This document shows, in pieces, positions 11,635 through 34,008 of a stretch of 34,467 bases of DNA. The translations under genes and the position numbers were made by a program. The DNA is from a virus. The first letter of the stretch is position 1. The number at the start of each line of letters is the position of its first letter. The notes beneath the pieces are model-generated. The model was not told the DNA's origin and did no database searches. It saw only the letters and a program-made list of their open reading frames with translations. Where the stretch lies: IMG/VR virus record IMGVR_UViG_3300020053_000033, positions 1-34,467 of that record. One strand, 5' to 3'.

Positions 11635-11648
11635 TTTTTTCTCCTGCA

Positions 11649-11694: not shown

Positions 11695-12624
11695 TTAGTT
11701 AACTGCGTTTTCAAAGAAGAAACCTAAGTCTTTGGCTGTGATCAGTTCTTTCACCGATTCACCCACCCGCACCATTTCACCGCCACGCATACCTATGTTT
11801 TTGTCCGGTGTTGAACCCGCAATACGGTTGCCAAATTCAGCGGTAAAGCCAAAAGTGGTGCCATTGCTCGCATCCGCCAAACGGTCACGGTAGATAAATG
11901 AAGCGTGGTTACCCCATGCTCTTGCTAAGTTGACCGCTTGCCCTGGGCGCGCAATATTCAAGCGGGCTTCACCGACCAGAATTGCTTCCAGTTCCAACAA
12001 ATCACGCAGGAACTCCAATGGCACCATGCCGTCTTCACCAGCAGAACCGTTGTAAGCTTTCACAAGCTTTGGGTGGCGGCGTAAAATGGTCGATGTACGA
12101 CGACCAAAAACACCAATGTTTGGACGCAGAACACAACTATCCAGGGAGTCAATAATCGCAACCAATGGGTTACTGTCTGCGTCGCTCCACTGGCTAGTAC
12201 CCGATAGCGTGACCTTGTTATTCACACCGTAACTAGCGCCATTGAAGACTAACTGTGAGGCACGAACTTCACGGTCCAGAACAATCAGATTCGTGGTTTG
12301 CTCTGTGGCTTTGGCCAGTGGGTCGTAGCCAGGTGGGGCATTAGCAATATCATCATTTGGTACTGGCGCATCTAATGCGTAATCACTTGTGCTGGCGGTC
12401 TTCTCTTCGGCACCAAACTCAACTTGGTTCACACGGCCAGTACGGCTAACACTGGTATTTGGCACCGTGAAACCGTCTGCCAAGTTGTGAAGCATGTATT
12501 TAAAGTCTGCTTTACCAACAGTCACTCGCGGCAGTACTTCATCTGCGATCATCCGAGTGTTCCGGTAAGCAATTGCGATCGCTGTCAATTCGGCTTGAAT
12601 TGGAAATGGCGCTGCTTTACTCAT
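11695..12624 (-). CDS. Major capsid protein
   Basis: 309 residues from ATG 12624 with AGGAG 11 bases upstream. The sequence (AELTAIAIAYRNTRMIADEVLPRV, then FKYMLHNLADGFTVP, and DSLDSCVLRPNIGVFGRRTSTILRRHP) is typical of the HK97-fold major head proteins of Mu-like siphophages and related prophages. Gene order protease/scaffold, decoration protein, capsid confirms the call. The product assembles into the icosahedral shell around the scaffold. Stem-loops flank the gene on its 3' side, compatible with very high expression. Confidence 0.92.
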   Translation of the reverse strand: MSKAAPFPIQAELTAIAIAYRNTRMIADEVLPRVTVGKADFKYMLHNLADGFTVPNTSVSRTGRVNQVEFGAEEKTASTSDYALDAPVPNDDIANAPPGYDPLAKATEQTTNLIVLDREVRASQLVFNGASYGVNNKVTLSGTSQWSDADSNPLVAIIDSLDSCVLRPNIGVFGRRTSTILRRHPKLVKAYNGSAGEDGMVPLEFLRDLLELEAILVGEARLNIARPGQAVNLARAWGNHASFIYRDRLADASNGTTFGFTAEFGNRIAGSTPDKNIGMRGGEMVRVGESVKELITAKDLGFFFENAVN

Positions 12625-12669: not shown

Positions 12670-13047
12670 TTAAGGTGCTGGGATAAAGCCAGGCACAATG
12701 TGGACCGAACCAATATCACCGAGCACACCACCGCCTTCAGAAAAGCCGATTGTGTAAGTTGCGACTGATACAGGTAATGTGACTGCAATAGCCCGACCTT
12801 GAGCGTCAGAGGTAAGCAAAGCGCCGTCTGCGGCAGTTCCGCCATATTCCACTGGCGCTAAGCCTGAGCGGATCACATCAGTAACTGCACCTGTAGCAGC
12901 TGGGATTTTTGGGCTAACGCCAATCATTGGTGCAGCTACACCAACCGCTTGTTTTGTGCCACCCACGGCAGCACCAGTGATTAAAATGCGATGGCCAGCA
13001 ATAGCGGCCTCAGCCAGTCGTGCTGTAACTAAACCTGGAATATTCAT
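12670..13047 (-). CDS. Head decoration / capsid cement protein
   Basis: 125 residues; ATG 13047 overlaps the protease stop by one base (TAATG). It is rich in Gly, Ala and Val with few charges (ARLAEAAIAGHRILITGAAVGG; ATGAVTDVIRSGLAPVEYGGTA), the make-up of DUF2190-like trimeric decoration proteins that lock capsomers after expansion. Position between protease/scaffold and major capsid is the usual one. Family assignment is by composition and context. Confidence 0.75.
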   Translation of the reverse strand: MNIPGLVTARLAEAAIAGHRILITGAAVGGTKQAVGVAAPMIGVSPKIPAATGAVTDVIRSGLAPVEYGGTAADGALLTSDAQGRAIAVTLPVSVATYTIGFSEGGGVLGDIGSVHIVPGFIPAP

Positions 13048-14177
13048 TACGAATTACCTTTCTGGACATGCTTGACCGCATCAGTAGCACTGATGGTCAC
13101 GCCTTTGTTTTGCATTTCAGCCTGGTACTGCGTTGCTGCTGCAGCTAAGGCTTTCGGATTTTCGGCAAAGTCCACAGTCTCTTTGTCTTTGCCTGAGTGC
13201 TCAGAGAAATCGACGCGGGCTGGCAGGTTTGATAAGAAGCCGCGCAACCATTCGCTGGCAGGTTTCTTCACTTCACCATCAGCGGCGGCAAAGCTGACTG
13301 TTTGCTCTTGATCAAGGCTGGCCATAAAGCTAACCAGGCCATCTTTTTCACCTGGTAACAACTTGCCTTCTGTTACCAGTTGCGCGGCGAAACTAACCGC
13401 CGCTTCCTGTTTGGCTGCCAGTTCTTTATCCGCCAGTGCTTTCTCACGCGCAGCCAATTGGCTTTCACGGGCAGCGAAGTCGGCTGTCTTGTCTTTGTTT
13501 GGGTCCACAGGGAGCACCTCCGGTTTATGGTTGTCTTTGGATACATCAGGGGCAGCAAAGCCTGGGTAAGCTTTTGAAAGCTCCATCATTGCTTCGGTTT
13601 GCTGGGTTTCTATGTCACGAACCACATAATCTGGTACCACCTTGTCGGCTGTTTCAGCACCAAACTGTTCTAACATCCAGTCACGTAGGCCACGGGCCAT
13701 TTTGCTGAGTGACCAAAGCGCCTGGTCGGCATTGCTTGCAGCAAAGTCGATAGTCACCAGCTCGTTGGTATCGGCACCAAATTCAGCCATTTTTAAGCCT
13801 GGTATTGCCGGAGCTGCAGCACCTAAAAAACCAACATGGCGCAGGTACCAAACACCAGGCTTTGGGTTGGCTGAATGTGTAGGTGGGAAAAAAGATGCGC
13901 TCATCTTTGGAAAACGTTTTTCATTTACCATTGCGGCGAACTGAGGTTCTACGTCCATTGGCTCTGCAACAACCAATTCACCATCCAGGCTGATTGACTT
14001 CACCAGGCCATAGGCCGGGTCTTCCATTTTAGGGTGACCGATCACCAGGGGAGCAGCAAAAATAACTGGGTCGTAAGCAGCCACAGACGCTTGCATCTGT
14101 TCTTTTGTAAAAGTCCATTCGCGGCCTTCGCTGTCTTTGTGAGTACCTGCACGGAAAATCTCAAGTAATTTGCTCAT
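13047..14177 (-). CDS. I: Head maturation protease with scaffold domain (Mu gpI-like)
   Basis: 376 residues from ATG 14177. Residues 1-130 form the Mu-like protease domain: MSKLLEIFRAGTHKDSEGRE, then PLVIGHPKMEDPAYG, FPKMSASFFPP and YLRHVGFLGAAAPAIPGLK, the last two being characteristic blocks with the likely catalytic Ser (in SASFF) and His (in LVIGHP). From about residue 215 a coiled-coil scaffold follows (ARESQLAAREKALADKELAAKQ). Internal in-frame starts could give a scaffold-only product, as in Mu (gpI/gpZ), but I see no convincing internal ribosome site. The Shine-Dalgarno candidate (GAGG) lies about 13 bases upstream, unusually far. A 19-codon frame in the leader ends in ATGA over this start and could give translational coupling. 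Confidence 0.9.
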   Translation of the reverse strand: MSKLLEIFRAGTHKDSEGREWTFTKEQMQASVAAYDPVIFAAPLVIGHPKMEDPAYGLVKSISLDGELVVAEPMDVEPQFAAMVNEKRFPKMSASFFPPTHSANPKPGVWYLRHVGFLGAAAPAIPGLKMAEFGADTNELVTIDFAASNADQALWSLSKMARGLRDWMLEQFGAETADKVVPDYVVRDIETQQTEAMMELSKAYPGFAAPDVSKDNHKPEVLPVDPNKDKTADFAARESQLAAREKALADKELAAKQEAAVSFAAQLVTEGKLLPGEKDGLVSFMASLDQEQTVSFAAADGEVKKPASEWLRGFLSNLPARVDFSEHSGKDKETVDFAENPKALAAAATQYQAEMQNKGVTISATDAVKHVQKGNS

Positions 14178-14258
14178 GGTTGCATGTCATCCTCGGCCAC
14201 AGAGTGAAAAGTCAAAAACGGGTTTGTGACCATCAGAATGCAGAATCGGGGCGGCAAT

Positions 14259-14280
14259 GTAATTTGAACGCGGACAAAAT
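14259..14280 (-). promoter_or_regulatory. Dyad element, late-operon copy 1 (candidate Mor-type activator site)
   Basis: A 22-bp segment identical to one at 22494-22515. Its core TTTGAACGCGGACAAA has dyad symmetry (TTTG..CGCG..CAAA; 14 of 20 positions symmetric in the 20-bp version), as expected for a dimeric DNA-binding protein. It lies 82 bases upstream of the protease start on the leftward transcript. No clear sigma70 -35/-10 pair accompanies it, which fits an activator-dependent promoter. Confidence 0.7.
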
Positions 14281-14288
14281 ATGCGGGG

Positions 14289-14305
14289 ATGCCTAAAACA
14301 GGCAT
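14289..14305. other. Short inverted repeat in the G-I spacer
   Basis: ATGCCT-AAAAC-AGGCAT, a 6-bp perfect stem with a 5-base loop, lies between the terminator (14363-14395) and the dyad element (14259-14280). No T-run follows in the leftward direction. It may be a weak second terminator or part of the promoter's upstream region; nothing more can be said. Confidence 0.4.
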
Positions 14306-14362
14306 TTATAAACGTTTACAAGGGGGTTAAAGGGGTTAACCAAAGCAAGGTTATAGCCCAGA

Positions 14363-14395
14363 CCTCTTAAAACGCGCTACAGCGCGTTTAAGAGG
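14363..14395 (-). terminator. Bidirectional rho-independent terminator after the gpG-like gene
   Basis: The arms CCTCTTAAAACGCGC and GCGCGTTTAAGAGG pair with a single bulged A around a TACA loop; the TAA stop of the gpG-like gene is inside the structure. In the leftward direction the GC core CGCGC-TGTA-GCGCG is followed by TTTT. The A/T-flanked symmetrical stem could work on both strands. It should end the lysis/terminase/portal transcript before the protease/capsid/tail operon. Confidence 0.8.
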
Positions 14396-14945
14396 ATGCG
14401 GAGTTCTTGAGCCATCTAACTGTTAAACGGCCAATATAACTGCTGTTATCGCTGCTCAAGCCCAACCATTGGCGTTTAGGCATATTAATTTCGTATGGGC
14501 CAACAGTGGCATCTTGGGCAAAGTTACTCTTTTTCCTTTTCACAAAACGGTTGCCTATGCTGCCGTCTTTGTTCTGCTGAAAGTAGACAGTAGTTTTACG
14601 GGCCTTTTGCTTGATCACTCCACCGAAGTTGTGAATGGCACCGTAAACATTATTGGTACCAAAGCTTAAACCAGAGTCATCAAACTGGCCCCGCAATGTG
14701 CTTTGCAAGTACGCCCTGAATGTAAGGACTTTGCCTTTGTTGCGATGCTTACGCTTTTGGTACCTGGCTGAAAGACGCTGCCAGGCTTTGCCATCAGGAT
14801 CAGTTTGGGTGCCAAAACGTGCGCGGGTGGTTCGCATCATGTATTCGTTTATTTGCGCAAACAACGGAGCTGGATGCTGTAGCCGGTGATTAATCTCTGC
14901 CAGCTTTGCTGCAACGTCTGATGTAATGTCTACCTTTGCTGCCAT
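14388..14945 (-). CDS. G: Phage virion morphogenesis protein (Mu gpG-like)
   Basis: 185 residues from ATG 14945. The family blocks of Phage_tail_S (PF05069, gpG) are clear: MRTTRARFGTQTDPDGKAWQRL near residues 37-58, VYGAIHNFGGVIKQ near the middle and INMPKRQWLGLSSDN near the C-terminus. Members act late in assembly, probably in tail completion or head-tail joining. It directly follows the MuF gene (8-base gap), as in Mu, and is the last gene before the terminator. The length is slightly above the family norm because of a Lys/Arg-rich middle (NRFVKRKKSNF). Confidence 0.92.
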   Translation of the reverse strand: MAAKVDITSDVAAKLAEINHRLQHPAPLFAQINEYMMRTTRARFGTQTDPDGKAWQRLSARYQKRKHRNKGKVLTFRAYLQSTLRGQFDDSGLSFGTNNVYGAIHNFGGVIKQKARKTTVYFQQNKDGSIGNRFVKRKKSNFAQDATVGPYEINMPKRQWLGLSSDNSSYIGRLTVRWLKNSASS

Positions 14946-14953
14946 GCTGGATC

Positions 14954-16189
14954 TTACTCCCTACGATAAACCCTAACACCAACGCGATAATCATCAATGT
15001 CGGTGTCCACTGTGGTGTTAATAGCTGACCAACCATCAGCACCCCATTCAAATACAGACAGTGCAGGAACGGTTTGGTCAGGCAGTTTGAAGCTTGCAAT
15101 GTAACGACGTTTTACCACTGCCTTTTGCTGATCTGCCATGTATTCCATACGCACCCATATTTCGTCTGGCTCCATCACAGCTTTGGCCATAACGCCCAGG
15201 AACTGGCCGCGACCATCTTTGTTGGCATTTATTTCGCCGCCTTTGCGGCTTACAAATAGATCCCGACCAATCACCAGGCTATCACCCAACACGTCTTTGA
15301 AAATAACGGATTGTTCCATCGTGGCCCCAAAGGGTTTTAAAAATGCTTCAGCATAAGCTGTGTCAGGTAAAGCTTTATCCAAAACAGCTGATGCTGGCAA
15401 AGCCCGTGGTTTTGGCAGTGCATCTTTAGGTTTGGTGTTAGGTAGGCCGTTTGCGCTCATTCCCTTTGGTGGCTCAGATAATTCAGGTGGTACTGCACTG
15501 TCTAACCGGCTGCGCCCTGGTGCATATTCAAAGCCCGGATCAATACCTTCCGGCACTTCAACAATGCGCGGGCCATCAGGGTGACGTTTGCCAATTTCAC
15601 GCTGCAGCATTTTAACTGCAGGCGCTTTGTCCGGGCCTGATTTACCTTCAGCTGCTAAATCTTCTTCGGTTAAACCTTCCACATAACACTGGCAGCCCCA
15701 GCCATTGGGAGGGTAATGAGTTTGCCACCACGGATCATCTGCAGACAAAATCAGGCCATCCCACTCAAGGTGTTCGTGGCGTGGATTTTCTACTGCGTCG
15801 CTATGTTTATAACGCCAGTAAGGCAAGGCTGCGGTTTGCGACTGCAGCTGCTCCTGACGCCCAGCGTTGTAGCTACTGAACAAGTTGGTTTCGTAGATAG
15901 TGCGGCTACGCCATTCACGGCCACCGTTATAGTCCCAGCCGTTCTCAGCCACTATGCGGTCAAAGTCTTTACGGAACTGCTCAAGGGTGCCACCGTCTGC
16001 GATCACCTTTTCGATAGCGGTGCGAAAGTCGGCCAGCATAGTGTCGCGTGTAACACCGGCTACCATAAAAGCCCAGTCATGTTCTGCGTTGTAAATATCA
16101 GTCCAATGGGTGGTTGGCATATTAAGCTTGCGCCGGAAGAACGCGATCTGCTGTTCAAAGGGCACAGAACCATAACTGGCTTCAGCCAT
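14954..16189 (-). CDS. F: MuF-like minor head protein with C-terminal PBECR-type nuclease domain
   Basis: 411 residues from ATG 16189 with GGAG upstream. Residues 20-170 are the Phage_Mu_F domain: helix LNMPTTHWTDIYNAEHDWAF, RTIYETNLFSSYNAGR (97-111), HLEWDGLILSADDPWW (140-155) and HYPPNGWGCQC (158-168). After a Pro-rich linker (228-268) residues about 270-395 form an alpha/beta domain (EQSVIFKDVLGDSLVIGRDLF; IWVRMEYMADQQKAVVKRRYI; SVFEWGADGW) resembling the phage Barnase-EndoU-ColicinE5/D-RelE nuclease group (PBECR) often fused to MuF proteins. MuF proteins sit inside the head near the portal and are thought to enter the cell with DNA, so the tail domain could be a delivered effector. It overlaps the portal gene by 8 bases. 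MuF assignment is firm; nuclease activity is inferred. Confidence 0.88.
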   Translation of the reverse strand: MAEASYGSVPFEQQIAFFRRKLNMPTTHWTDIYNAEHDWAFMVAGVTRDTMLADFRTAIEKVIADGGTLEQFRKDFDRIVAENGWDYNGGREWRSRTIYETNLFSSYNAGRQEQLQSQTAALPYWRYKHSDAVENPRHEHLEWDGLILSADDPWWQTHYPPNGWGCQCYVEGLTEEDLAAEGKSGPDKAPAVKMLQREIGKRHPDGPRIVEVPEGIDPGFEYAPGRSRLDSAVPPELSEPPKGMSANGLPNTKPKDALPKPRALPASAVLDKALPDTAYAEAFLKPFGATMEQSVIFKDVLGDSLVIGRDLFVSRKGGEINANKDGRGQFLGVMAKAVMEPDEIWVRMEYMADQQKAVVKRRYIASFKLPDQTVPALSVFEWGADGWSAINTTVDTDIDDYRVGVRVYRRE

Positions 16190-17900
16190 TGTTTTTAGCT
16201 CCCTGTTCGTCCAGTACTTCGGCCTGACCGGCTAATTTTGCAGTAGCTGTTGCAGTGGCCATAGCGTCGGCAAACTGCCCTAAGCTCAGGTTAGGGTAAA
16301 GAGCCATTAAACTGTCCTGCAGCTGCTCTAAGCTTTCAGCTTCATCAGCTAATTTCTTCACCTGGTTAATCCAGTCGCTGGTGGCCTTCTCTGAATTGGC
16401 ACGGGCCTGTTCAGCCATTTGAGCCGGGGCTGGCAGTGTTTCATCTGCAGCGGCAAAGTCGGCGATTCCAATTAGCTTGTCTATCTGCTCTGGTAATATG
16501 GCCGGGAAACCAGCCTCAATTAATGCCCTGGCGCGGCTGCGGTCTAATGTTTTCGCCTGCACCTGGGCAATAACATCCGACAGAGATTTAATCTGTGCGC
16601 CATTTAAAGCGGTTTGTTGCACCGAGGCAGCACCTGTTGCAGCTAATGGATCAATGGTTTCCGGTTGCGGTTCTGTCGCTGCAGGTAATTCCTGGCCTTC
16701 GATCACCTTGCCAGTGCCTGGCTCAGGTTCTTTCTCTACCCAGCCATCACCGTAGTTCTCCTGGATATATTCAAGCGTTGGTTTAAAGCCCAGACCAAAT
16801 ACTTTGGTGTCACGTTCTGCACGTTTGGCTGTGTCTTCATCTGGCGCCACCTGACGATAAACGCGAGGCGGTATCGCGCCAGGGAAATTCCATTCAGTTA
16901 GCCATTTGCCAACACTGCGGTTAAACGACTCACAGACTAAATCAGCATCGGCTTTAATCAGGTCGGTTCTTACATCACCCTGCAGCTCGTCATTTCCCAA
17001 CTTCCCTGGTGTGCCTTGTGTACTGGCAGTTTGCCCTAAGATCACTTTGGCTATGGCGTTATCCATAGTGCTGTACAACGACATATAGTCGGCGGTACCA
17101 GAGCGTGCCGCCTCTATCAGTTCTATTTGCATGCCCTCTGGCACGGCAATACCGCTGTCTGTTGCTATAGCGGCTAAAGCCTGCAGCAGTTTATTTATTT
17201 CGTCAGTTTTGGCATTCGGCCCATAAGTACCTTTTGCTGTGGGCTGACCAAACTTCTCTAAAAACAGCAGCCAGTACTTCAGGCCATTGCGCTTAAAGAA
17301 TGCTGGCCAGTAAAGCCAATGCCCTAAGCCCATTCCGTAGGGTTCGTCATCATGATCAGAGCCGGTACTGAAGTGCCAAAACTTATTGTCAGGCAGTAAC
17401 ATGCCTTTTGGCTCCGCCTGGGTTTTCATACGCAAACGGCCCATACCATCAAAACCAAAACGGCGACGGTCCCGCACTTTAAGATCAGCAAGCGCTATGG
17501 TGTTACCATCTGTTGCATACAGGGCTTCAGATACTGCAAAGCCGTAATACACGCCATACAGCATTTTGTCTGTCACGCGGTCCCAACCCACATTGTCGAG
17601 CTGTTCTTTCATGTAATCGGCGGCCATCTTATCGGCTTTGCTTTTGCCGCCAGCTTCGACTATCCAGTCTTTACCTATCACCGCCAGGCGGCGCTGAGCA
17701 AAGCAGGCAGATACTTGATCGTCACGCAGTACTTCGGCATAGATTTTTAAATCACCACCACGGGCCTTTAATACCGAGTCTGTTGGGGCAGCAATACTCA
17801 AAGGGTCGAGATAACCACGGGTAACGTCTTTGCCATCACCGGTAGTGGCCACTTCGGTCATTTCTGGTATCACCGCTTTTACTTTTTTCTCTTTGGCCAT
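16182..17900 (-). CDS. Portal protein, DUF935 (Mu gp29-like)
   Basis: 572 residues; ATG 17900 overlaps the terminase stop (TAATG) with AGAGGG upstream. DUF935 (PF06074) blocks are visible: DDQVSACFAQRRLAVIGKDW near residues 55-75, NKFWHFSTGSDHDDEPYGMG, RNGLKYWLLFLEKFGQPTAK and ILGQTASTQGTPGKLG. Twelve copies form the ring at one capsid vertex through which DNA is packed and ejected. The long C-terminal region (from about residue 390) is Ala/Glu/Gln-rich and helical, typical of the barrel/crown part. Order terminase-portal-MuF matches Mu. Confidence 0.95.
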   Translation of the reverse strand: MAKEKKVKAVIPEMTEVATTGDGKDVTRGYLDPLSIAAPTDSVLKARGGDLKIYAEVLRDDQVSACFAQRRLAVIGKDWIVEAGGKSKADKMAADYMKEQLDNVGWDRVTDKMLYGVYYGFAVSEALYATDGNTIALADLKVRDRRRFGFDGMGRLRMKTQAEPKGMLLPDNKFWHFSTGSDHDDEPYGMGLGHWLYWPAFFKRNGLKYWLLFLEKFGQPTAKGTYGPNAKTDEINKLLQALAAIATDSGIAVPEGMQIELIEAARSGTADYMSLYSTMDNAIAKVILGQTASTQGTPGKLGNDELQGDVRTDLIKADADLVCESFNRSVGKWLTEWNFPGAIPPRVYRQVAPDEDTAKRAERDTKVFGLGFKPTLEYIQENYGDGWVEKEPEPGTGKVIEGQELPAATEPQPETIDPLAATGAASVQQTALNGAQIKSLSDVIAQVQAKTLDRSRARALIEAGFPAILPEQIDKLIGIADFAAADETLPAPAQMAEQARANSEKATSDWINQVKKLADEAESLEQLQDSLMALYPNLSLGQFADAMATATATAKLAGQAEVLDEQGAKNNG

Positions 17901-19588
17901 TAGTCGTACCCTCTGTAATCGTTATTGCCAGAGACAACGCCAAAGCCTCTGTCGTTATTTATTTGTGTAGTTGTATCGCCAAGGGCATTGAGTGACTCAC
18001 GGCGGCCAGTGGTTTGAAAGTCGATAGGCAAAGGCATTTTCATGTTGTATCTGGCAAAGCAACCCAGACACAGCGTCACTGCAGAGTCGCCATGACGATA
18101 AAGCTCAGGCTCTTTTAAGTCTTTTTGCGTTACATTCGGCACCATTTTTATGCCGTCCACATCAACAACGGCGCGTAAGTCTTGCTCAATGTTTGCGTCA
18201 CGCGGCAGGTCTATTACTCCATCTTCAAACCACTGAATCATTTTGGGCATCCAGATCCCGTACCAGCTCCGGCTTAAATTAACCTGGTGTATTACCTCAT
18301 GGCCGTATCTGTCTGCTGTGTACTCGGCTAACGTTTGGCCTGGGCCCGTAGCATCCATCGCACCACCACGGAAGTTCGGTAGCCGGTCAACGATGTACCA
18401 TAAGATTTGTTCCTGCTGGCGGGTTGGTACCTTGTTCATTTCAATAACCCAAGGGCAAAAGATTCGTAAATCCGTCATGACCGCCAATGGTTTAATAATT
18501 GAAAAGTGGCGATGCCGGGCAAAATCCTGAGCAAATATGTGTTGTAGGGTTGGGTCTAATAATTTAATCAGCGGGTCTAAGTTTTCTTTTATCCATTGAT
18601 CACACCAGATTTCACGCTCTTCCGGTGTTTTATCAACAAAGTCTTCATCAAGCGCCAACCGCACAACTGGGCGTACTTCGCGCATTGAGTTATCTATCCA
18701 GATCCCTGGTATAGCTATGCCTGCACCATCACGAGGTATAGCGTCCAGTTCTTCCCGCATTGCGGCTTTACGAGGACCATAAGCACTACGAATGCCGGTA
18801 TACCATTTCTTCTTACCTTCTTCCGTTGGCGCTTCACCTTTCATCATGCAGCGGCGTTCGTACAAGCCATTCGCCACAGCATCGTCAAAAGTTACTGTAT
18901 AGACAGCCGCATCCGGGCCGTATCGGCCCTCTTCAATATCTTTGCAAAACTGGTTAAATGGGTTGTTCTTGCCGTTATGCGAGCTGATAACAACAATTTT
19001 ACCGCCCCAGATAAGTAAAGCAGTTGCAGCGTCTAATACGTCCTGCACATTGGCGTGGAATGCGGCTTCATCAATAATGACTATTCCTTGAAGGCCCCTG
19101 ATATTTTCAGGTCGGGATGATAATGCGCAAACTTGAAAACCGGAGCTAAAGCGAATGCGGTAGCTGGTGATGTATTTCGTGTTGCCTTTTTCGTCCTGAT
19201 CCTCAAACAGGAATTCTTCAATACTGGAAACCCCCTGGCCTTGAGCTTCAGCAATCAATCGGGCGAACTTGGCGCAGTAACCAACAAACTCTAAGCCTTT
19301 TTGCTTTGTATCACCTATGTAGTAGATGTTATCGCCACCAGATTCTTTCCGGCTGGCAGCTGTGATTGTAGAGTCAAGCGCCTTAGAGAAAGTCATGCCT
19401 GTCCGGCGACCTTTTGGCACTGCAATGATGGACTGTGGCATGGCCAGAAACTCAGCCTGGTGCTTCATCAATACACCGTCAGCCATAGGGTCAAAGTTGG
19501 TAGGTATGTTCCGTACTCGCGCAGGTAGTTCGTCCCACTCAACAGTGCGCAGAGTACTGGATAATTGATTCATCTTTGGCACGCTCAT
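17900..19588 (-). CDS. Large terminase subunit (Mu gp28-like)
   Basis: 562 residues; ATG 19588 overlaps the small-subunit stop (TGATG). The packaging ATPase has a deviant Walker A (VPKGRRTGMT, residues 58-66), Walker B IVIIDEAAF (169-177, D173/E174) and coupling motif VVISSHNG (199-206). The RNase H-like nuclease has acidic residues at D355 (FAQDFARHRHF), D412 (GGAMDATGPG) and D501 (YRHGDSAVTL). It drives DNA into the procapsid and makes the headful cut. Mu-type enzymes package integrated copies with flanking host DNA. All catalytic residues are present. Confidence 0.96.
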   Translation of the reverse strand: MSVPKMNQLSSTLRTVEWDELPARVRNIPTNFDPMADGVLMKHQAEFLAMPQSIIAVPKGRRTGMTFSKALDSTITAASRKESGGDNIYYIGDTKQKGLEFVGYCAKFARLIAEAQGQGVSSIEEFLFEDQDEKGNTKYITSYRIRFSSGFQVCALSSRPENIRGLQGIVIIDEAAFHANVQDVLDAATALLIWGGKIVVISSHNGKNNPFNQFCKDIEEGRYGPDAAVYTVTFDDAVANGLYERRCMMKGEAPTEEGKKKWYTGIRSAYGPRKAAMREELDAIPRDGAGIAIPGIWIDNSMREVRPVVRLALDEDFVDKTPEEREIWCDQWIKENLDPLIKLLDPTLQHIFAQDFARHRHFSIIKPLAVMTDLRIFCPWVIEMNKVPTRQQEQILWYIVDRLPNFRGGAMDATGPGQTLAEYTADRYGHEVIHQVNLSRSWYGIWMPKMIQWFEDGVIDLPRDANIEQDLRAVVDVDGIKMVPNVTQKDLKEPELYRHGDSAVTLCLGCFARYNMKMPLPIDFQTTGRRESLNALGDTTTQINNDRGFGVVSGNNDYRGYD

Positions 19589-20166
19589 CAGCGACGTACC
19601 CCTAAGAACTTCTCACGCCAGAACCGAACCTGCTCATCATCAAACCCTTTGGCTGTAGCAATTTCCTGCAGATTGTTTTCTTGCTCCTGCAGCAACTTCT
19701 GACGCCCACGCTCTTCAGCTTCTGCCTGGTACTTCTTCAGGGTTACAGAACTACGGGTTAAGGTGGCTATGTTTTTCGCGGCATTGGCCAATAGCCCAAC
19801 ACGCTCAGAGGCTGGCATTTCTTCTTCGCTGGCTTCTTGCAGCGTCATGATGGATTCAAACAGTTCCGACTGGATCATGGCAATCAATGCTTCTGATCGG
19901 GCGTCTTCTTTGTCACCCACCTGGTCACGAATAATTTTCGCGGCTTCGGTGCTGGCTCTGATGGCTGACAACCGGCTTTCTAACTTCTGGCCATAACGCC
20001 CCACAGCACTGCGGCTTGGCAGTTCGCCAGCTGCAGCTTCGTCAGGGAAGCACTTTTGCAAGTCGGCTATCAGTTCATCCAGGGTCATATTGCCTTTTGC
20101 AAGCTTTCCCTGGATGTATGATTTAATGACGTCCGGCAAACGGTCTAATGAGGATTTACGGGCCAT
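19588..20166 (-). CDS. Small terminase subunit, DUF3486 (Mu gp27-like)
   Basis: About 192 residues from ATG 20166 (MARKSSLDRLPDVIKSYIQ), the usual family N-terminus. A GTG three codons upstream (20175) overlaps the previous stop as GTGA and is an alternative. A helix-turn-helix-like N-terminal part (MTLDELIADLQKCFPDEA; LPSRSAVGRYGQKLE) recognises packaging DNA. A coiled-coil region (QAEAEERGRQKLLQEQENNLQ) and a conserved end (FDDEQVRFWREKFLGVRR) follow. It works with the large subunit encoded next. Confidence 0.9.
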   Translation of the reverse strand: MARKSSLDRLPDVIKSYIQGKLAKGNMTLDELIADLQKCFPDEAAAGELPSRSAVGRYGQKLESRLSAIRASTEAAKIIRDQVGDKEDARSEALIAMIQSELFESIMTLQEASEEEMPASERVGLLANAAKNIATLTRSSVTLKKYQAEAEERGRQKLLQEQENNLQEIATAKGFDDEQVRFWREKFLGVRR

Positions 20167-20171
20167 AGCAA

Positions 20172-20480
20172 TCACCAGTACTTAACTGGGCGGGCAATGC
20201 CTGGCGCACAGTCTACGGTATATTCAACTATGTCAGTGCCTAACCGTGTCAGGTCTAAATGCCAGCGACCATTTGGCTCTTTGACAATATCGACCATTTT
20301 ACGATCAGACAGGTAATCGGCTTCACGGCGCAGTTCCAATGCTGTTGCGTCCTGGTATTCACTTTGCACCACAGACAACGCAATCCCTTCATAAGCGCCC
20401 AGTGGCCGGGCATTATTCAAAGTCAGCAGAATTAACCACCGCATGTGTTCGCGTCGGATTTTTCCCATATCAATAGTCAT
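20172..20480 (-). CDS. Mu gp26-like protein
   Basis: About 102 residues from ATG 20480 (MTIDMGKIRREHMRWLILL), chosen because GAGG lies 6 bases upstream; a GTG at 20492 is possible. The sequence looks like a winged helix: LNNARPLGAYEGIALSVVQS, then TALELRREADYLSDRKMVDIV and a wing-like PNGRWHLDLTRLGTDIVEY. It sits between the gp25-like gene and the small terminase, the place of gp26 in Mu. A DNA-binding role in packaging or regulation is possible; the function is not established. Confidence 0.75.
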   Translation of the reverse strand: MTIDMGKIRREHMRWLILLTLNNARPLGAYEGIALSVVQSEYQDATALELRREADYLSDRKMVDIVKEPNGRWHLDLTRLGTDIVEYTVDCAPGIARPVKYW

Positions 20481-20492
20481 TTTCGGCCTCAC

Positions 20493-20840
20493 TTATTGTT
20501 GTCTTAGCTGGTTGCGCAACTGAATGTTTTCTATCTGCACAGCCACTTTGTCGATTTTGTTTTCCAGAATGGTCTGGCCGCGAATGTAGTCTTCCCGCCG
20601 GACGTATTGATCGGGTAGATGCGCCTTTAATTCCATCAGTTCGCGCTCTACCCGTTGCCACTGCTTAGCCTCTTCTTTGTTAGTTTCTTCTATGCCATCC
20701 AGCCGCTTTCCCATAGCTTCAAAGGCTTTATCCATATGGCTTTGAAACAAACTCATAAACCACTTAAAGGCGGCGATACATCCGCCCAAAAATGCCACCA
20801 GCAGCAGTACCAACTGCCAAAACTCAACCTGCATTTGCAT
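20493..20840 (-). CDS. DUF2730 (Mu gp25-like) membrane coiled-coil protein
   Basis: 115 residues from ATG 20840 with AAGGA upstream. An N-terminal membrane helix (residues 7-29, FWQLVLLLVAFLGGCIAAF) is followed by a coiled coil with the characteristic DUF2730 block LPDQYVRREDYIRGQTILE. Its function is unknown; genes of this family lie between lysis and packaging genes in Mu-like phages. It overlaps the 3' end of Rz by 17 bases. Confidence 0.9.
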   Translation of the reverse strand: MQMQVEFWQLVLLLVAFLGGCIAAFKWFMSLFQSHMDKAFEAMGKRLDGIEETNKEEAKQWQRVERELMELKAHLPDQYVRREDYIRGQTILENKIDKVAVQIENIQLRNQLRQQ

Positions 20841-21450
20841 GGCGTTTTCCTTGTTCTTCTAAGTAATCAATTAACGAATTCAGTTGGTCGGCGGTGTCCT
20901 GGCATTGCTGGCCTGCTTGAGTGGCGTGGCGCAGGATGTCGGACCGTTCAATGCTGCTGGGTTGCAACGAGGTGTCAGCAGTGGCAGCGGCTTGGGGCGC
21001 TCTATCAATTCCGGTGGCAGCACCAGTGGCGGGCATTCCGGTGGCAAGCTCACTGCTGGCACCGAAGGCGCTGTTGTACACCCGGACAAAACCATGAGTG
21101 AACATGCAAGCAGGCTGAGCTTCAGGCTTATCCGCGTTGGGCGGCGTCCATGTAGTGGTGACATAATCGATTTCCTCTTCAAGTTCTGCAGCCTTTTTGG
21201 CACTAGCTGCCTTTTCAGCTCTCAGCTTCTTAACGGTTTGGTCTGCCAGGCTAATTTGCCCTTGCAGATTGGTAATGGTTTGGTCTTTGGCGCGCAGCAA
21301 GGCTGCATCGTTTTTCTCTTTACAGGCGTCAGCTGCAGCTTTAAAACCGGCATCGTAGGAATCTTTTAGCGTGTCCTGGTATGCGTTGATACCGAAATAA
21401 ACCATCCCCAACAGGCCGATGATCAGCACCAAAATTCGACTAAAAGACAT
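20824..21450 (-). CDS. Rz: Inner-membrane spanin (Rz-like)
   Basis: 208 residues from ATG 21450 (MSFSRILVLIIGLLGMVYF), which has AGGAG six bases upstream; a GTG at 21465 is less likely. A single N-terminal membrane helix (about residues 4-24) anchors a periplasmic coiled coil (AKDQTITNLQGQISLADQ, VKKLRAEKAASAKKAAELE). The C-terminal region ends SLIDYLEEQGKRHANAG. It lies just after the endolysin gene (11-base overlap) and contains Rz1 in another frame. The Rz-Rz1 complex fuses inner and outer membranes in the last lysis step. Confidence 0.88.
   Translation of the reverse strand: MSFSRILVLIIGLLGMVYFGINAYQDTLKDSYDAGFKAAADACKEKNDAALLRAKDQTITNLQGQISLADQTVKKLRAEKAASAKKAAELEEEIDYVTTTWTPPNADKPEAQPACMFTHGFVRVYNSAFGASSELATGMPATGAATGIDRAPQAAATADTSLQPSSIERSDILRHATQAGQQCQDTADQLNSLIDYLEEQGKRHANAG
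20880..21164 (-). CDS. Rz1: Outer-membrane lipoprotein spanin (Rz1-like), embedded in Rz
   Basis: 94 residues from ATG 21164 (MSPLHGRRPTRISLKLSLL), with AGAGGA 8 bases upstream, wholly inside the Rz gene in a different frame. A basic N-terminus, a hydrophobic stretch and the lipobox LSGC (residues 26-29) predict cleavage and lipidation at Cys29. The mature protein is Pro-rich (SVPAVSLPPECPPLVLPPEL), typical of Rz1. A longer frame to 21203 exists but lacks a ribosome site and would spoil the signal peptide. This embedded arrangement is the same as in lambda. Confidence 0.87.
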   Translation of the reverse strand: MSPLHGRRPTRISLKLSLLACSLMVLSGCTTAPSVPAVSLPPECPPLVLPPELIERPKPLPLLTPRCNPAALNGPTSCATPLKQASNARTPPTN

Positions 21451-22144
21451 GGCATACTCCTGCACCCCAGCCAGCCGCTACGTAAAGCGGTTGGTGGCGG
21501 TAAATAATGGCTTTGGGGTAATGGCGGTTTTCAGCAAAGGCAGCTTTAGAGCGGCCAGCGTTGTAAAGCTCAGTGGAGTCAAACCAAGCCAGCGGATCGG
21601 CCCCTGAAGCCGAAGCCAGCGCTTTGTCACGGTTTAACCAACCTAAGCCGCCGTTGTAGCTGCTTAGCGTAAAGGCCCATTGTTGGCACGGGCTGCTGGC
21701 TTGGATTTGCTTAAACAAATGCTGGTTGTACAACACCAGGGCGCGCATGGCCCAGGCAGGGTTGTACGGTTGTGATGTGGTTAAATCACGCGGGTTACGA
21801 GAAGCAAACCATTCGCTGGTAGCTGGCATAAACTGAGCTAAACCTTCCGCTCCTGCAGGTGACCGGGCATCAATGCGCCAGCCGCTTTCCTGATGGATTT
21901 GGGCAGCGAACAAAGATACCGGCGCATCTAAGCCAGCATGGGCATGGGCAGTGCGGATTAAGGTGCGCTTATGGGCATTGGCCTGTTGTGGGACTGCTGC
22001 ATGGGTCTTGCCAGCCCATAAAAACAGAGCAACAAGCGCAACGGTGTAACTGGCCAAAATACATAAGATGAATAAATTCACACGCCACGATGGTTTTTTA
22101 ATTTGAGCTATTTTTGCAAAATGCTCCGCCAGTCTTTTATCCAT
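21440..22144 (-). CDS. Endolysin: lytic transglycosylase (SLT domain) with N-terminal membrane anchor
   Basis: About 234 residues from ATG 22144; a GTG two codons upstream overlaps the holin stop (GTGA) and is an alternative. A hydrophobic segment (VNLFILCILASYTVALVALFLWAG, with a break here: residues about 22-45) exports or anchors the enzyme. The SLT domain follows: IHQESGWRIDARSPAGAEG with the catalytic Glu in QESG, GLAQFMPATSEWF, and SSYNGGLGWLNRD. It cleaves the glycan strands of peptidoglycan. The segment could act as a signal-anchor or as a cleavable signal (GKTHAA follows). It is the second gene of the lysis cassette. Confidence 0.9.
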   Translation of the reverse strand: MDKRLAEHFAKIAQIKKPSWRVNLFILCILASYTVALVALFLWAGKTHAAVPQQANAHKRTLIRTAHAHAGLDAPVSLFAAQIHQESGWRIDARSPAGAEGLAQFMPATSEWFASRNPRDLTTSQPYNPAWAMRALVLYNQHLFKQIQASSPCQQWAFTLSSYNGGLGWLNRDKALASASGADPLAWFDSTELYNAGRSKAAFAENRHYPKAIIYRHQPLYVAAGWGAGVCHVF

Positions 22145-22146
22145 AA

Positions 22147-22437
22147 TCACAGCCCCAACGTCAGGCCAAGCACACAGGCCAGCACGATTAAGGCGCGGCG
22201 CAGCATAGCTAAACCACGGGGAATTAAGTCTTCGCCGGTTTCAGCGTAGGTATGGGGGCGGTCATAAGGGAATAAGGAACGGTCAACCCAGTAGGCTAAT
22301 ACTGCGCCCAGGGTAACCAGGGCAAGTTTGTACAGCACCACTGGTAAGTTGACTGGATTAACAAAGGCAATAGCAACCAGCAGCAGTGCGCTAAGCAGCG
22401 CCCACAGCCAAAAGCGTGGCAAAAATTGAAGGTTCAT
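22147..22437 (-). CDS. Holin (Phage_holin_8-like)
   Basis: 96 residues from ATG 22437 with AAGGA upstream. Three hydrophobic helices are visible (about 8-27, 32-50 and 77-95) and a conserved-looking middle (WVDRSLFPYDRPHTY, then LIPRGLAMLRRALIV) that I associate with the putative holin family found before SLT endolysins in Mu-like prophages. It would time lysis by forming holes or depolarising the inner membrane. It is the first gene after the late control site at 22494-22515, so lysis genes lead the late operon. Confidence 0.82.
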   Translation of the reverse strand: MNLQFLPRFWLWALLSALLLVAIAFVNPVNLPVVLYKLALVTLGAVLAYWVDRSLFPYDRPHTYAETGEDLIPRGLAMLRRALIVLACVLGLTLGL

Positions 22438-22449
22438 AAGGCATCCTTA

Positions 22450-22467
22450 GTGGTGAGTGATCACCAC
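22450..22467 (-). other. Perfect stem-loop in the late leader just before the holin ribosome site
   Basis: On the minus strand GTGGTGA-TCAC-TCACCAC is a perfect 7-bp stem with a 4-base loop, ending about two bases before the AAGGA of the holin gene. No T-run follows, so a terminator is unlikely. It could affect holin translation or protect the 5' end of the late mRNA. Confidence 0.55.
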
Positions 22468-22493
22468 CAACAATGCCTTTTATTTAGTTTTGA

Positions 22494-22515
22494 GTAATTT
22501 GAACGCGGACAAAAT
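22494..22515 (-). promoter_or_regulatory. Dyad element, late-operon copy 2 (candidate Mor-type activator site)
   Basis: Identical over 22 bp to 14259-14280, including the dyad core TTTGAACGCGGACAAA. It lies between the cargo gene stop (22535) and the holin start (22437). Downstream in the leftward direction a TAAATA that could serve as a -10 begins about 20 bases from the dyad centre. Two exact copies, each before a leftward late operon, point to one shared activator or repressor. Mor is the only late-activator-type protein seen here. Confidence 0.7.
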
Positions 22516-22534
22516 TATTCTGTAGCGAATATTC

Positions 22535-23032
22535 TTACAAAATCGTTGCACTGCAATTTGAATTTCTAACAGAAGCATCCACAGAGTTTGCAACTAAAGC
22601 TCCAAAAGAGTTTTTAGCCCTGTAGGTCATTAACAACTTATGTGCACCGCTTTCATCCACTGGAGTTATTCGGGTTGCCACATGCTCAAAGCTGGAAGGG
22701 TCTTTTAGATTCTGTTTAACATAGCGCACAACATCAGAGTTAGAACCATCCCAACCACTTAGGCAATGAAAGCCTTTGCGTTTATGATCTTCGGCCTTTT
22801 GAATTTCCTGTGCTTCTGCAGCCGCTTTTCTCTGTTTGTCTTCTGGGCTTTCATGCATACATGAGTAAAGCCCAAAGAGCGCTATCAAGACAATGCTGCT
22901 CATCGCTACGATACCAAAGTAATGAGAGGCATCCATACCAGGCACAGGGTCTTTAATGCCACAGTAAGGGCACTTTGGCGGTGCATCATTTACTTTGCCA
23001 CCACAGTTTTTACACTTTATATAATCCGTCAT
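22535..23032 (-). CDS. Membrane-anchored zinc-ribbon protein, probable lysogenic cargo
   Basis: 165 residues from ATG 23032 (MTDYIKCKNCGGKVNDAPP) with AGGGAA upstream. A zinc ribbon uses C7, C10, C21 and C24. A membrane helix follows at about 39-58 (YFGIVAMSSIVLIALFGLYS), then a charged helix (62-87) and a C-terminal domain with FHCLSGWDGSNSDVVRYVK and KDPSSFEHVATRITPV. The last motif occurs in many small bacterial secreted or membrane proteins of unknown function. The gene is 13 bases downstream of the repressor on the same strand and upstream of the late control site, so it is likely co-expressed with the repressor in the lysogen. Superinfection exclusion or host modification are possible roles; none is shown by sequence. 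Confidence 0.8.
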   Translation of the reverse strand: MTDYIKCKNCGGKVNDAPPKCPYCGIKDPVPGMDASHYFGIVAMSSIVLIALFGLYSCMHESPEDKQRKAAAEAQEIQKAEDHKRKGFHCLSGWDGSNSDVVRYVKQNLKDPSSFEHVATRITPVDESGAHKLLMTYRAKNSFGALVANSVDASVRNSNCSATIL

Positions 23033-23045
23033 ATAGGTTCCCTGA

Positions 23046-23504
23046 TTAGGTGTCTTTCGTTACTTTCTGTTGTGGAAATAAGGTACTGATTTTCATCAAA
23101 ACAACCTGTGCCTCAGCCTCTAAGTTGCGGTAGTTATTCACCAAAGTTTGTTCTTCTTCACTCAGTATTTGAGTTCTATATTGCTGTAAAACAGCCTCTT
23201 GTATCGCATGTGCTGATTCTTTGTCACCTGAAATAGATGAGGCTAACATGCCAAATTCAGTGCCTAATTTAAGCGCAGCAAGCATGGAATGAGTAGCTGT
23301 TTTTACCCCAGTTAGGACATAAAGTAAATCCACTCCAACGATTCCAAGTGCTGATAACTGCACCGCAGTTGGTGCAGTAGCCCCTTTTTCCCATTCAATC
23401 AAAGTTCTTTTGGCTGCGCCAGCTGCAGCTGCAAACTCTGGCTGCGTCATGCCCAATCTGGCTCTCTCAGTTTTTATTCTTTCAGCTATCTCTAAATTTT
23501 TCAT
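23046..23504 (-). CDS. XRE-family lysogeny repressor
   Basis: 152 residues from ATG 23504 (MKNLEIAERIKTERARLGM). Residues about 8-62 form an HTH_3/Cro-CI helix-turn-helix (LGMTQPEFAAAAGAAKRTLIEWEKGATAPTAVQL with the recognition helix around AAKRTLIEWE; broken for length: residues 17-50). There is no LexA-type protease domain; the C-terminal half is helical (EAVLQQYRTQILSEEEQTL), perhaps for dimerisation, so induction may not be by RecA-driven self-cleavage. No Shine-Dalgarno precedes the start, and an operator half-overlaps it, so it is probably weakly or leaderlessly translated and self-regulated. Position opposite the early operon marks it as the master repressor. Confidence 0.88.
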   Translation of the reverse strand: MKNLEIAERIKTERARLGMTQPEFAAAAGAAKRTLIEWEKGATAPTAVQLSALGIVGVDLLYVLTGVKTATHSMLAALKLGTEFGMLASSISGDKESAHAIQEAVLQQYRTQILSEEEQTLVNNYRNLEAEAQVVLMKISTLFPQQKVTKDT

Positions 23505-23521
23505 GCAGATTTCGGCACCAT
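23502..23521. promoter_or_regulatory. Operator O1 over the repressor start codon
   Basis: TGCAGATTTCGGCACCAT is an imperfect copy of the operator at 23531-23550; aligned 20-bp windows agree at 17 positions and lie 30 bp apart (about three helical turns). It covers the repressor ATG (23504-23502), so binding would limit repressor expression. Which protein (repressor or the small regulator at 23603) binds it is inferred from position. Confidence 0.75.
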
Positions 23522-23525
23522 CATG

Positions 23526-23554
23526 TTGACTGGTGCAGATTTCTGCACCATACT
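23526..23554 (+). promoter_or_regulatory. Early promoter, rightward
   Basis: TTGACT (23526-23531), a 17-bp spacer and CATACT (23549-23554) match a sigma70 promoter pattern (5/6 and 4/6 bases). The spacer is almost exactly the palindromic operator, so a bound repressor would block polymerase. The predicted start, about 7 bases past the -10, is some 40 bases upstream of the first early gene. Confidence 0.7.
23531..23550. promoter_or_regulatory. Operator O2, perfect palindrome inside the early promoter
   Basis: GGTGCAGA-TT-TCTGCACC with matching flanking T and A gives a 9-bp perfect inverted repeat around TT. It fills the spacer of the early promoter at 23526-23554 and shares sequence with O1 30 bp away. 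Such paired sites in the divergent region are typical of the lysis-lysogeny switch. Confidence 0.85.
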
Positions 23555-23602: not shown

Positions 23603-23824
23603 ATGACGCAAACTGCCACAGCCGATCAAGTCAAAGCGGCACTCTACAAAAAAGGCACCACTTTGAAAGGATGGTGCATCGAACATGAATTCAATTACCG
23701 CACCACCCTGAACGCAGTGAATCGCCACACCAGCGGTAATGCTCGTCAGCCTTGGGGTCCACTTACCCGAAAAATCCTATCTGCGCTGGAAAAAGAAACC
23801 GGCTTTCAGTTACTACCAAACTAA
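23603..23824 (+). CDS. Small Ner / BcepMu gp16-like DNA-binding regulator
   Basis: 73 residues from ATG 23603 with GGAG 7 bases upstream. A helix-turn-helix is apparent in KGTTLKGWCIEHEFNYRTTL (residues 17-36), followed by AVNRHTSGN and PWGPLTRKILSALEKETGF. The pattern of a short regulator with tryptophan-led HTH and a terminal helix resembles the BcepMu gp16 family and plays the positional role of Ner, the first gene of the early operon that turns down early and repressor transcription. Family assignment is tentative. Confidence 0.72.
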   Translation: MTQTATADQVKAALYKKGTTLKGWCIEHEFNYRTTLNAVNRHTSGNARQPWGPLTRKILSALEKETGFQLLPN

Positions 23825-23835: not shown

Positions 23836-24150
23836 ATGACTACGAAAAGTAATGACCGAATTAGCAGCAGCGCCTTAAAAGTGCTGACTGTTTTAAAAGC
23901 GTTAAAGGGTCACACCTTCGTTGGCCTGAGTAATTCTGATTTAGCCAAAGGGCTAGAGGAAACACCCACAACAATTAACCGCTGCTTGAACACGCTTATC
24001 GAAGCTGGTTTAGCGGTCAAACTTGATAATGGTCGATTTGCTTTAAGCGTTGGCATGTTGCAAATCGCAGTGGCACATGCAAACGAAATGGGCCGTGCGG
24101 CAGATCGCATTCAAGAGCTGACACAGCGCATTAACACTTGCAAGCTTTAA
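23836..24150 (+). CDS. IclR-type winged-helix regulator (N-terminal domain only)
   Basis: 104 residues from ATG 23836, with AGGTGACTAA before it. Residues 10-70 match the HTH_IclR domain: SSALKVLTVLKALKG, NSDLAKGLEETPTTINRCL and TLIEAGLAVKLDNGRFAL. The effector-binding domain of true IclR proteins is absent; only a short helix follows (HANEMGRAADRIQELTQRI), perhaps for dimerisation. It is in the early operon between the small regulator and the transposase-linked genes and may be a second control protein or a transposition accessory. Confidence 0.8.
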   Translation: MTTKSNDRISSSALKVLTVLKALKGHTFVGLSNSDLAKGLEETPTTINRCLNTLIEAGLAVKLDNGRFALSVGMLQIAVAHANEMGRAADRIQELTQRINTCKL

Positions 24151-33165: not shown

Positions 33166-33656
33166 AGTTGTTCCGATGCCCAGTCTGCCATTCAAGCATT
33201 CACCTGGATCAACTGGTCGCTGACGAAGCTGGCCGCCAGCTGCTGGGCGTCATGGCAAAACTGAATTACCGCATGGGTCCGGCACTGGTTTCATACCTGG
33301 CTATGTTCCGGCCACCAAAACAAGACTTGAGTAACGCCAAAGCATTAAACCTGGCCACAGACACGTTGGCCCTAACAACCAACCACGCTGTATTGGCTGA
33401 GGCCCTGCAGGATACTGTCAGTGCACTGCATGCCAGCCGCCATAACGCTCCGGCAAAGCAGTTAACCAACCACAACTACTTAAAGAAAGTACTGGCAGCC
33501 AAATTAGGTGAAGCAGCAGTAAAAGCCACTGGTACCACTGTTGAGATCAAACACCAGGCAACACTTTCTAAAGAGGCCGAACAGGCCGCGTTTGAAGAAC
33601 GCATGAAGTTATTAGGCGGCAATATTTACGGGAAGGTGCCAAATGACAGCAAATAA
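33162..33656 (+). CDS. Zinc-finger-like early protein, unknown
   Basis: 164 residues; ATG 33162 overlaps the GemA stop (ATGA), and the longer frame to 33048 is rejected. It opens with MKLFRCPVCHSSIHLDQLV, a CxxC near the start with a following His, then helices (EAGRQLLGVMAKLNYRMGP, ALVSYLAMFRPPKQDLSNA). The Leu-Ala-Met-Phe-Arg-Pro-Pro segment and the basic middle suggest nucleic acid binding. It resembles the conserved partner gene between GemA and Mor in many Mu-like prophages. No function known. Confidence 0.75.
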   Translation: MKLFRCPVCHSSIHLDQLVADEAGRQLLGVMAKLNYRMGPALVSYLAMFRPPKQDLSNAKALNLATDTLALTTNHAVLAEALQDTVSALHASRHNAPAKQLTNHNYLKKVLAAKLGEAAVKATGTTVEIKHQATLSKEAEQAAFEERMKLLGGNIYGKVPNDSK

Positions 33657-34008
33657 AAAAACCGGTATGAGCGCGCTGCGTAGCGAGCTGTTAGACGATA
33701 TAGTCACCCACGTATCAACCATATTGGAAGACAACGGCATAGCTGAAGACTTGGCAGAACAGAGCGCAATTGCAGCAGCCGACTTTTTGGCCGAGCATTG
33801 GGGCGGTCAGTTGATTTGTTTCCCTAAAAACTTCCTTTTCAAACTGGCCCAACGCGACTTGCTGATATATGATGAATTCAACGGACGCAACCACGCCCAG
33901 TTAGCTAAAAAGTGGCATATGTCTGTTAGAGGTATTTACAAGTTGGTCAATCGGGTTCAAAAACGAGTAGTAGCAGAGATTCAACCGGATTTATTCGCAG
34001 AAGAGTAG
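33643..34008 (+). CDS. mor: Mor, middle-operon activator
   Basis: 121 residues from ATG 33643, overlapping the previous gene by 14 bases. Mor family (PF08765) blocks: EHWGGQLICFPKNFLFKLA near residues 51-69, RDLLIYDEFNGRNHAQLAKK and the C-terminal HTH HMSVRGIYKLVNRVQKR, ending EIQPDLFAEE. Mor dimers bind dyad sites upstream of phage promoters and recruit host RNA polymerase. It is the last early gene and lies within about 70 bases of the likely phage end. No separate C activator is seen, so Mor may act on the late promoters itself. Confidence 0.95.
   Translation: MTANKKTGMSALRSELLDDIVTHVSTILEDNGIAEDLAEQSAIAAADFLAEHWGGQLICFPKNFLFKLAQRDLLIYDEFNGRNHAQLAKKWHMSVRGIYKLVNRVQKRVVAEIQPDLFAEE

Follow-up and report, generated by a model that had tools for sequence, protein, structure and literature searches.

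We analysed a 34,467-nucleotide stretch of viral DNA (IMG/VR virus record IMGVR_UViG_3300020053_000033, positions 1 to 34,467; hereafter the window), in which one 22-bp element occurs twice, each time in a spacer before an operon of late genes. By its layout the window is the record, possibly a fragment, of a B3-type transposable phage: its early and late arms diverge, a repressor gene stands between them, and gemA and mor close the early arm. The repressor and late genes read leftward from about 23.5 kb and the early genes rightward to 34 kb, the latter comprising ner-like, IclR-like, transposase, MuB-like ATPase, GemA and Mor genes (some named by position), and the layout is common to the window, Pseudomonas phage B3 and Stenotrophomonas phage phiSHP3. 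Reading leftward, copy 2 of the element is followed by holin, endolysin, spanin, terminase and portal (PF06074) genes, and copy 1 by protease, capsid and tail genes. From the sequence comparisons described below, we consider it very likely that the element is the activator-binding half of two Mor-dependent late promoters, with Mor as the activator.

The 22-bp element

The 22-mer GTAATTTGAACGCGGACAAAAT is identical in both copies and has the same orientation; on the late strand it reads ATTTTGTCCGCGTTCAAATTAC, with TTTGTCCGCGTTCAAA as its central 16-bp dyad. Copy 1 lies in a spacer from the protease start to a G-like gene (14178-14387) and copy 2 in one from the holin start to the gene at 22535-23032 (22438-22534), neither containing an open reading frame (ORF) of at least 60 amino acids. 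The core is an imperfect palindrome with TTTG/CAAA arms, complementary by eye at six of eight positions. The 16-bp dyad, TTTGT-CCGCGT-TCAAA, has 5-bp arms with four of five positions complementary and a spacer in which five of six bases are G or C (by eye), which is the Mu-type arrangement of two 5-bp inverted repeats around a G/C-rich hexamer. The element spans positions -10 to +12 around the dyad centre, and the block conserved across the wider family spans -9 to +12.

No further occurrence of the 16-bp core was found on either strand of the window with up to three mismatches allowed. Simulation of 200 first-order Markov sequences as long as the window gave longest exact direct repeats of 13-20 bp, and none reached 22. 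The first-pass annotation, made from the sequence alone, had described two identical copies of a palindromic element in gene-free spacers before late operons and had taken the repeat to imply selection; the coordinates, spacers, arms and simulations all agree with that description.

Promoter anatomy and predicted transcript starts

Each copy is followed by a -10-like hexamer at the same distance (positions are given in Table 1): the gap from TTAC to GCATTCT at copy 1, or to GCATTGT at copy 2, is 17 nt long in both promoters. In the relative G001 (49,008 bp; Mor 99% and protease 93% identical to those of the window), the copy before the lysis genes differs at one core position and in the sequence of its 17-nt gap, whereas GCATTGT and its distance are preserved. 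A simple scan found no sigma-70 pair of -35 and -10 boxes in either spacer.

This anatomy resembles that of the Mu middle promoter Pm, where a 16-bp Mor dyad with two 5-bp arms around a G/C-rich hexamer is centred at -43.5, with a -10 downstream of the dyad and no -35 (PMC4390567, PMC4287176). On sequence alone, the window promoters likewise lack a -35 and have a -10 that would place the dyad near -43.5 relative to a predicted start. Because the element fits the Pm geometry, transcripts are predicted to start near 14227 and 22462.

An imperfect inverted repeat at 22438-22479 (19-nt arms, 84% complementary) spans the -10 and the leader of the holin promoter. We considered a leader RNA hairpin formed by this repeat and set it aside, as it is not general in relatives and the repeat extends upstream of the predicted start. 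The predicted leader RNAs of the lysis promoters fold much as their mononucleotide shuffles do (mean z 0.11, with 3 of 27 below -1.5).

Conservation in related phages

Related loci were taken from portal-alignment scans, using the best 80 of 125 and the best 80 of 479 relatives. These 160 loci, the window and eight phage records make 169 sequences, of which 82 were usable, with protease and portal matches correctly ordered within 4.5 kb and at least 4.5 kb of upstream DNA. The 82 consist of the window, the 8 phage records, 34 genome loci and 39 viral loci (1,729,110 bases in all); many of the 82 are redundant. When the 300 bp before the protease gene were compared with the 9 kb before the portal gene, the best ungapped repeat scored at least 16 in 42 of the 82 sequences, versus 61 of 1533 control windows of coding DNA. 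Pairs with the right geometry numbered 47, each 48-nt key being counted once, and the weakest of them (L191, for example) may be due to chance.

Among 25 phages whose joined promoters are less than 80% alike, both promoters share TTTTGnCCnCGTTCAAAA and AC at +11/+12. The -10 columns A +32 and T +36 carry 0.77 and 0.92 bits before the protease gene and 1.19 and 1.27 bits before the lysis genes, while columns +13 to +31 carry at most 0.47 bits each; four of the 25 aligned promoter sequences are mis-centred. This profile class was picked by its CAAA-type arms, which therefore look conserved partly as a result of that choice; the -10 columns played no part in it.

When a profile is built with each phage left out in turn, both sites of that phage rank 1-3 in the whole locus, both strands included, in 24 of 24 phages (the lowest own score being 4.6, at the lysis site of L058). 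A profile from which the window and G001 are omitted scores 36.5 at copy 1 and 30.5 at copy 2, with 13.5 as the best score elsewhere in the window, and on 40 block-shuffled sequences the full profile reaches a maximum of 18.8 (median 7.2). Forward matches of at least 20 across the 82 sequences, counting training members and near-duplicates, fall before the protease gene (36), before the lysis genes (39) and, 5-7 kb beyond the protease start, in the tail region (14), with none elsewhere; the six reverse matches of at least 20 are these sites read in mirror image. Among sequences not used for training, 14 have both sites at this score; judged by inspection, L140 and the L126/L129/L130 group alone are clearly distinct phages, and the rest, the window included, are near-duplicates of training members. 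Dyad centres were shifted by hand after inspection in L066, L125 and L138 for the profile and in YPCBV1, L052, L160 and RR1B for the Mantel tests below, and the sites of Fc02, the window, L043, L129, L130 and L140 were entered from separate inspection or a profile scan. The conservation before holin and protease genes that the first-pass annotation had proposed to look for therefore holds in a large part of the relatives; 38 of the 82 sequences have no profile match at either promoter at score 15.

Part of these 38 carry a different dyad. B3 has TTTCGGTC|CGCCGAAA and TTTCGAAC|TGCCGAAA; before the protease gene, Bordetella-type prophages have GGTGAAGT|GCTTCACC and Pasteurellaceae prophages TCTAGACG|CGTCCAAA; Pasteurella phage AFS-2018a has TTTAAAGC|ACTTTAAA-like sites in four places. 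When the protease spacer was compared with the rest of the locus in ten named relatives, a repeat was clear in phiSHP3, YPCBV-1, AFS-2018a, RcapMu and RR1-B and weak in B3, and nothing convincing was seen in JY19, KP12, PhiKM and KS10.

The exact 16-mer was found in 11 stretches of viral contigs, only one of which belongs to a related phage (L005, from record G001). The other ten were taken as chance occurrences because none of 21 window proteins matched there. A near-identity DNA search of phage records with window positions 13000-23000 gave no match.

In 13 of the 53 protease promoters examined, an AUG that begins what looks by eye like a protease N-terminus is located 43-44 bases from the centre of the dyad: those of Fc02 (L241:20152), B3 (L033), phiSHP3 (L034), L058, L059, L071, L072, L078, L085, L098, L119, L187 and L194, with L058, L059 and L187 being near-duplicates. 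In Fc02 this AUG is the annotated protease start; the annotated start in B3 (L033:11950) lies between the dyad and the -10 and is probably too far upstream. Because the AUG falls on the predicted transcript start (+43/+44), it suggests a leaderless protease mRNA.

Covariation of the dyad with Mor

The window, like phage Fc02, has one ORF matching the Mor/C family (PF08765), whereas Mu has two; the single match in the window record agrees with the earlier remark that this phage has Mor and no visible C. The protein resembles chains in the Protein Data Bank (PDB) named Late transcription activator C (9l0x, 9vw8) and Middle operon regulator (1rr7); no paper associated with entries 9l0x, 9l0y and 9vw8 turned up in the literature searched. 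Mor is matched in 23 of 25 viral records, 22 of them with one ORF and one (G022) with a second match below the cut-off; the two records without a match are those behind L131 and L198. Ten further records have one Mor-family ORF each (8 above the cut-off), and of 20 whole genomes 19 have a match (18 above the cut-off).

We compared dyad and protein distances by Mantel tests. Most dyads had been located without using Mor; for a few the profile was used. The tests exclude near-identical Mor proteins, L146 (for lack of a located lysis site), L049 (whose protease frame is broken) and, in the 36-phage test, phages without a GemA match. In these 36 phages, dyad distance follows Mor distance with r 0.80, and with a partial r of 0.74 when GemA, portal and protease are controlled (0/2000 permutations in both cases). 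Given Mor, these other proteins retain nothing significant (GemA -0.06, 1617/2000; portal 0.15, 217/2000; protease 0.04, 592/2000). The partial value for Mor is 0.52 in the 29 phages with a strong Mor match. In 39 phages the recognition-helix region keeps 0.24 given the N-terminal region, and 0.22 with portal and protease added (1/2000). Correlations of the dyad with other proteins all fall below that with Mor (repressor 0.17, the protein of gene 24161-25147 0.19, Ner 0.38, IclR-like 0.45). Mor is the best candidate reader of the dyad in these comparisons, since its correlation exceeds those of the repressor, Ner and IclR-like proteins.

Other features of the window

Three further observations concern other genes. 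The protein of gene 22535-23032, between the repressor and the lysis promoter, has two N-terminal CxxC motifs and a likely transmembrane segment (by eye). The Mu F-like head protein (14954-16189) has a PBECR2 nuclease-like domain at its C-terminus (PF18810, 90 bits). A 36-bp tandem repeat of about seven copies at 11231-11554 encodes AAALAQKKADEE-type repeats in gene 11170-11658.

Table 1. Coordinates of the element copies, predicted promoter parts and associated genes in the window.
Feature	Position	Strand	Remarks
Copy 1, candidate PI-like late promoter	14259..14280	-	Dyad centre between 14270 and 14271; exact repeat
Copy 2, candidate Plys-like late promoter	22494..22515	-	Dyad centre between 22505 and 22506; exact repeat
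-10-like hexamer CATTCT, copy 1	14235..14240	-	+31..+36 from dyad centre
-10-like hexamer CATTGT, copy 2	22470..22475	-	+31..+36 from dyad centre
Predicted transcript start, protease operon	14227	-	Base +44 from centre, A; from Mu Pm geometry
Predicted transcript start, lysis operon	22461..22463	-	From Mu Pm geometry
Head maturation protease (I-like), first gene after copy 1	13047..14177	-	PHROG 976, E 1e-101
Holin, first gene after copy 2	22147..22437	-	PF13272, PHROG 1528
mor, proposed activator	33643..34008	+	Sole Mor/C-family gene found; last long rightward ORF of early arm; PF08765, 117.6 bits
Repressor	23046-23504		Gene close to copy 2
Ner-like	23603-23824
IclR-like	23836-24150

Alternative explanations

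The dyad might be an operator of the lysogenic repressor that silences late genes in the prophage. Repressors often bind dyads, the repressor gene lies close to copy 2, and its correlation with the dyad, though marginal, persists given Mor (50/1000 permutations; 0.18 given Mor, 44/1000; 28 phages). In the same 28 phages, however, the correlation with Mor is 0.63 and stays the same once the repressor is controlled, and a fixed distance to the -10 suits an activator. The spacer between repressor and ner (23504-23551) also holds another repeated motif, TGCAGATTTCKGCACCAT in two 18-bp copies, which is likely the repressor operator pair, and we regard an operator role for the 22-bp element as improbable. 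Slightly better placed, though still unlikely, is a dyad read by the IclR-like or the Ner-like protein, alone or with Mor. Both proteins keep a correlation once Mor is controlled (IclR-like 0.30, 5/1000, 27 phages; Ner 0.36, 0/1000, 26 phages), but Mor is stronger in the same phages: in those of the IclR-like comparison it reaches 0.60, and 0.53 with the IclR-like protein controlled, and in those of the Ner comparison 0.64, with or without control for Ner. A 16-bp dyad centred at -43.5 is moreover the geometry of Mor, which argues against either of the two as the reader. There is room for a minor role of a second protein beside Mor.

A structural signal in RNA or DNA, such as a terminator, leader hairpin, packaging site or recombination site, draws on two relatives, RcapMu (L041) and RR1-B (L042), in which the repeats shared by the lysis and protease spacers are GC-rich hairpins followed by T runs, with two tail sites as well in RR1-B. 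These hairpins could be terminators, promoter dyads or both; a terminator-only reading was not kept because their placement suits promoters equally. No terminator scored at the window dyads, the lysis-promoter leaders fold unremarkably, and neither a terminator nor a packaging role predicts a fixed -10 or covariation with Mor, so that a structural signal has a very small probability. Least probable of all, to the point of being negligible, is a chance repeat: the window does hold three other exact 15-bp direct repeats outside the tandem array, as chance would predict, but the length of 22 bp was not reached in simulation and conservation in relatives contradicts chance.

Several results weigh against a Mor-dependent late promoter. 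At score 15, the profile finds both sites in 37 of the 82 sequences, one site in 7 and neither in 38, and among the 82 we saw no convincing dyad pair in KP12, L121, L065, L109, L155, L169, L175, L180/L188/L189, JY19 and others, KP12 and L121 having a strong Mor all the same. Conversely, dyads are present in L117, whose genome has no Mor match, and in L198, L187 (a 21.6-kb record) and L131, whose records lack Mor; the lack in L131 may reflect an assembly break, because the genome of its near-duplicate L044 carries Mor at the contig start. The N-terminal region of Mor keeps 0.59 given the helix in the 39 phages, so that the signal reflects the whole of Mor and not the helix in particular. The Ner and IclR-like remainders given above also count against the proposal. 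The window has no third site in the tail region, its next profile score of 13.5 falling in coding sequence. In Mu, the profile's four best scores range from 8.2 to 12.1, with no forward match before lys, I or P among them, and the dyad scan did not recover the C sites as clean dyads.

Proposed mechanism and significance

We still favour Mor-dependent late promoters. The first-pass annotation had suggested a late-activator site that lets Mor alone run the late genes, and an activator site finds computational support in the conservation of the element, its fixed spacing to the -10 and the covariation of the dyad with Mor. A dimer of Mor, made from the end of the early arm, would bind the 16-bp dyad TTTGTCCGCGTTCAAA, which would stand in for a -35 box, and host sigma-70 RNA polymerase would use the weak -10 (CATTST) and start about 43 bp from the centre of the dyad. 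One copy would drive the lysis and packaging genes and the other the protease, capsid and tail genes. With one Mor-family protein reading the late promoters directly, the cascade would run from early to late without a middle step. Within this scheme we infer Mor binding, the start sites and the loss of the middle step, and the sequence evidence argues strongly that Mor alone runs the late genes; a single activator is probably enough to move the phage directly from early to late genes.

A broader proposal seems reasonably likely, with less confidence than the one for the window: in B3-type phages, one Mor-family protein replaces the two-activator cascade of Mu and, at two to four late promoters, reads dyads that differ from phage to phage, Mor and its dyads evolve together in matched pairs, and in a subset the protease AUG falls exactly where the promoter ends, giving a leaderless mRNA. 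If Mor and dyads are so matched, the late switches of related prophages in one cell could fail to cross-activate.

We found no description of the element in the literature searched, whose scope did not include the original B3 genome and Mu promoter papers, so that a prior mention is possible; nor did that literature hold an account of late-gene control in phages with a single Mor. The element would supply the missing cis-element and a predicted start for each late operon of such phages. The natural pairs of Mor and DNA form a set for working out how Mor recognizes DNA, and late operons of uncultured phages become findable from sequence alone.

Comparison with known phages

The closest parallels are the B3-type phages (Beetrevirus, e.g. 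B3 and Fc02), which have the same layout as the window, with Mor closing the early arm at its far end and with dyads before protease and holin genes. Unlike the window, B3 has dyads of the form TTTCG..CGAAA and Fc02 of the form TTTTCG..CCAAAA, with a third Fc02 site before the tape measure gene. The Fc02 dyads are TTTTCGCTCCTTCCAAAATAC before the holin gene, TTTTCGCCCCTTCCAAAAGAC before the protease gene and TTTTAGCGTCTTCCAAAAGAC before the tape measure gene, the first T's of the last being the T-run of a GC hairpin. By the Pm geometry, the corresponding Fc02 transcripts are predicted to start near 11753-11754, 20151-20152 and 25658-25659 of MH719189. RNA-Seq after induction of Fc02, in the portion of the report used here, shows an early operon ending in mor and then three forward late clusters, the first opening with holin-endolysin genes and the second apparently limited by a terminator (PMC9936078). 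The same portion does not contain 'palindrom', 'inverted repeat' or 'transcription start'. Three dyads for three late clusters are what the model predicts for Fc02, the comparison being one of number and not of exact cluster borders.

The early-middle-late cascade of Mu, with its two related activators, is the textbook case. The late promoters of Mu are Plys, PI, PP and Pmom, activated by C (names from PMC4287176). The window copies stand at positions corresponding to Plys and PI, before lys and I, and precede late genes with an activator of the same family. They differ in that no C was found in the window, that one Mor-family gene closes the early arm and that the motif is not shared with Mu.

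With Pm and Mor of Mu, the window shares a 16-bp dyad with 5-bp arms and a G/C-rich centre, the lack of a -35, a matching distance to the -10 and a protein of the Mor family, although the dyad scan did not place the Pm dyad in Mu and none of Mu's four best profile matches lies at Pm. Mor of Mu is reported to protect Pm from about -56 to -36. The window dyads, unlike that of Pm, stand before late genes, in two copies and without a separate C. In Mu, the late promoters do not respond to Mor, nor does Pm respond to C (PMC4287176). Since Mor of Mu leaves late promoters inactive, the window phage would work like the Mor-Pm pair of Mu applied to late genes without C.

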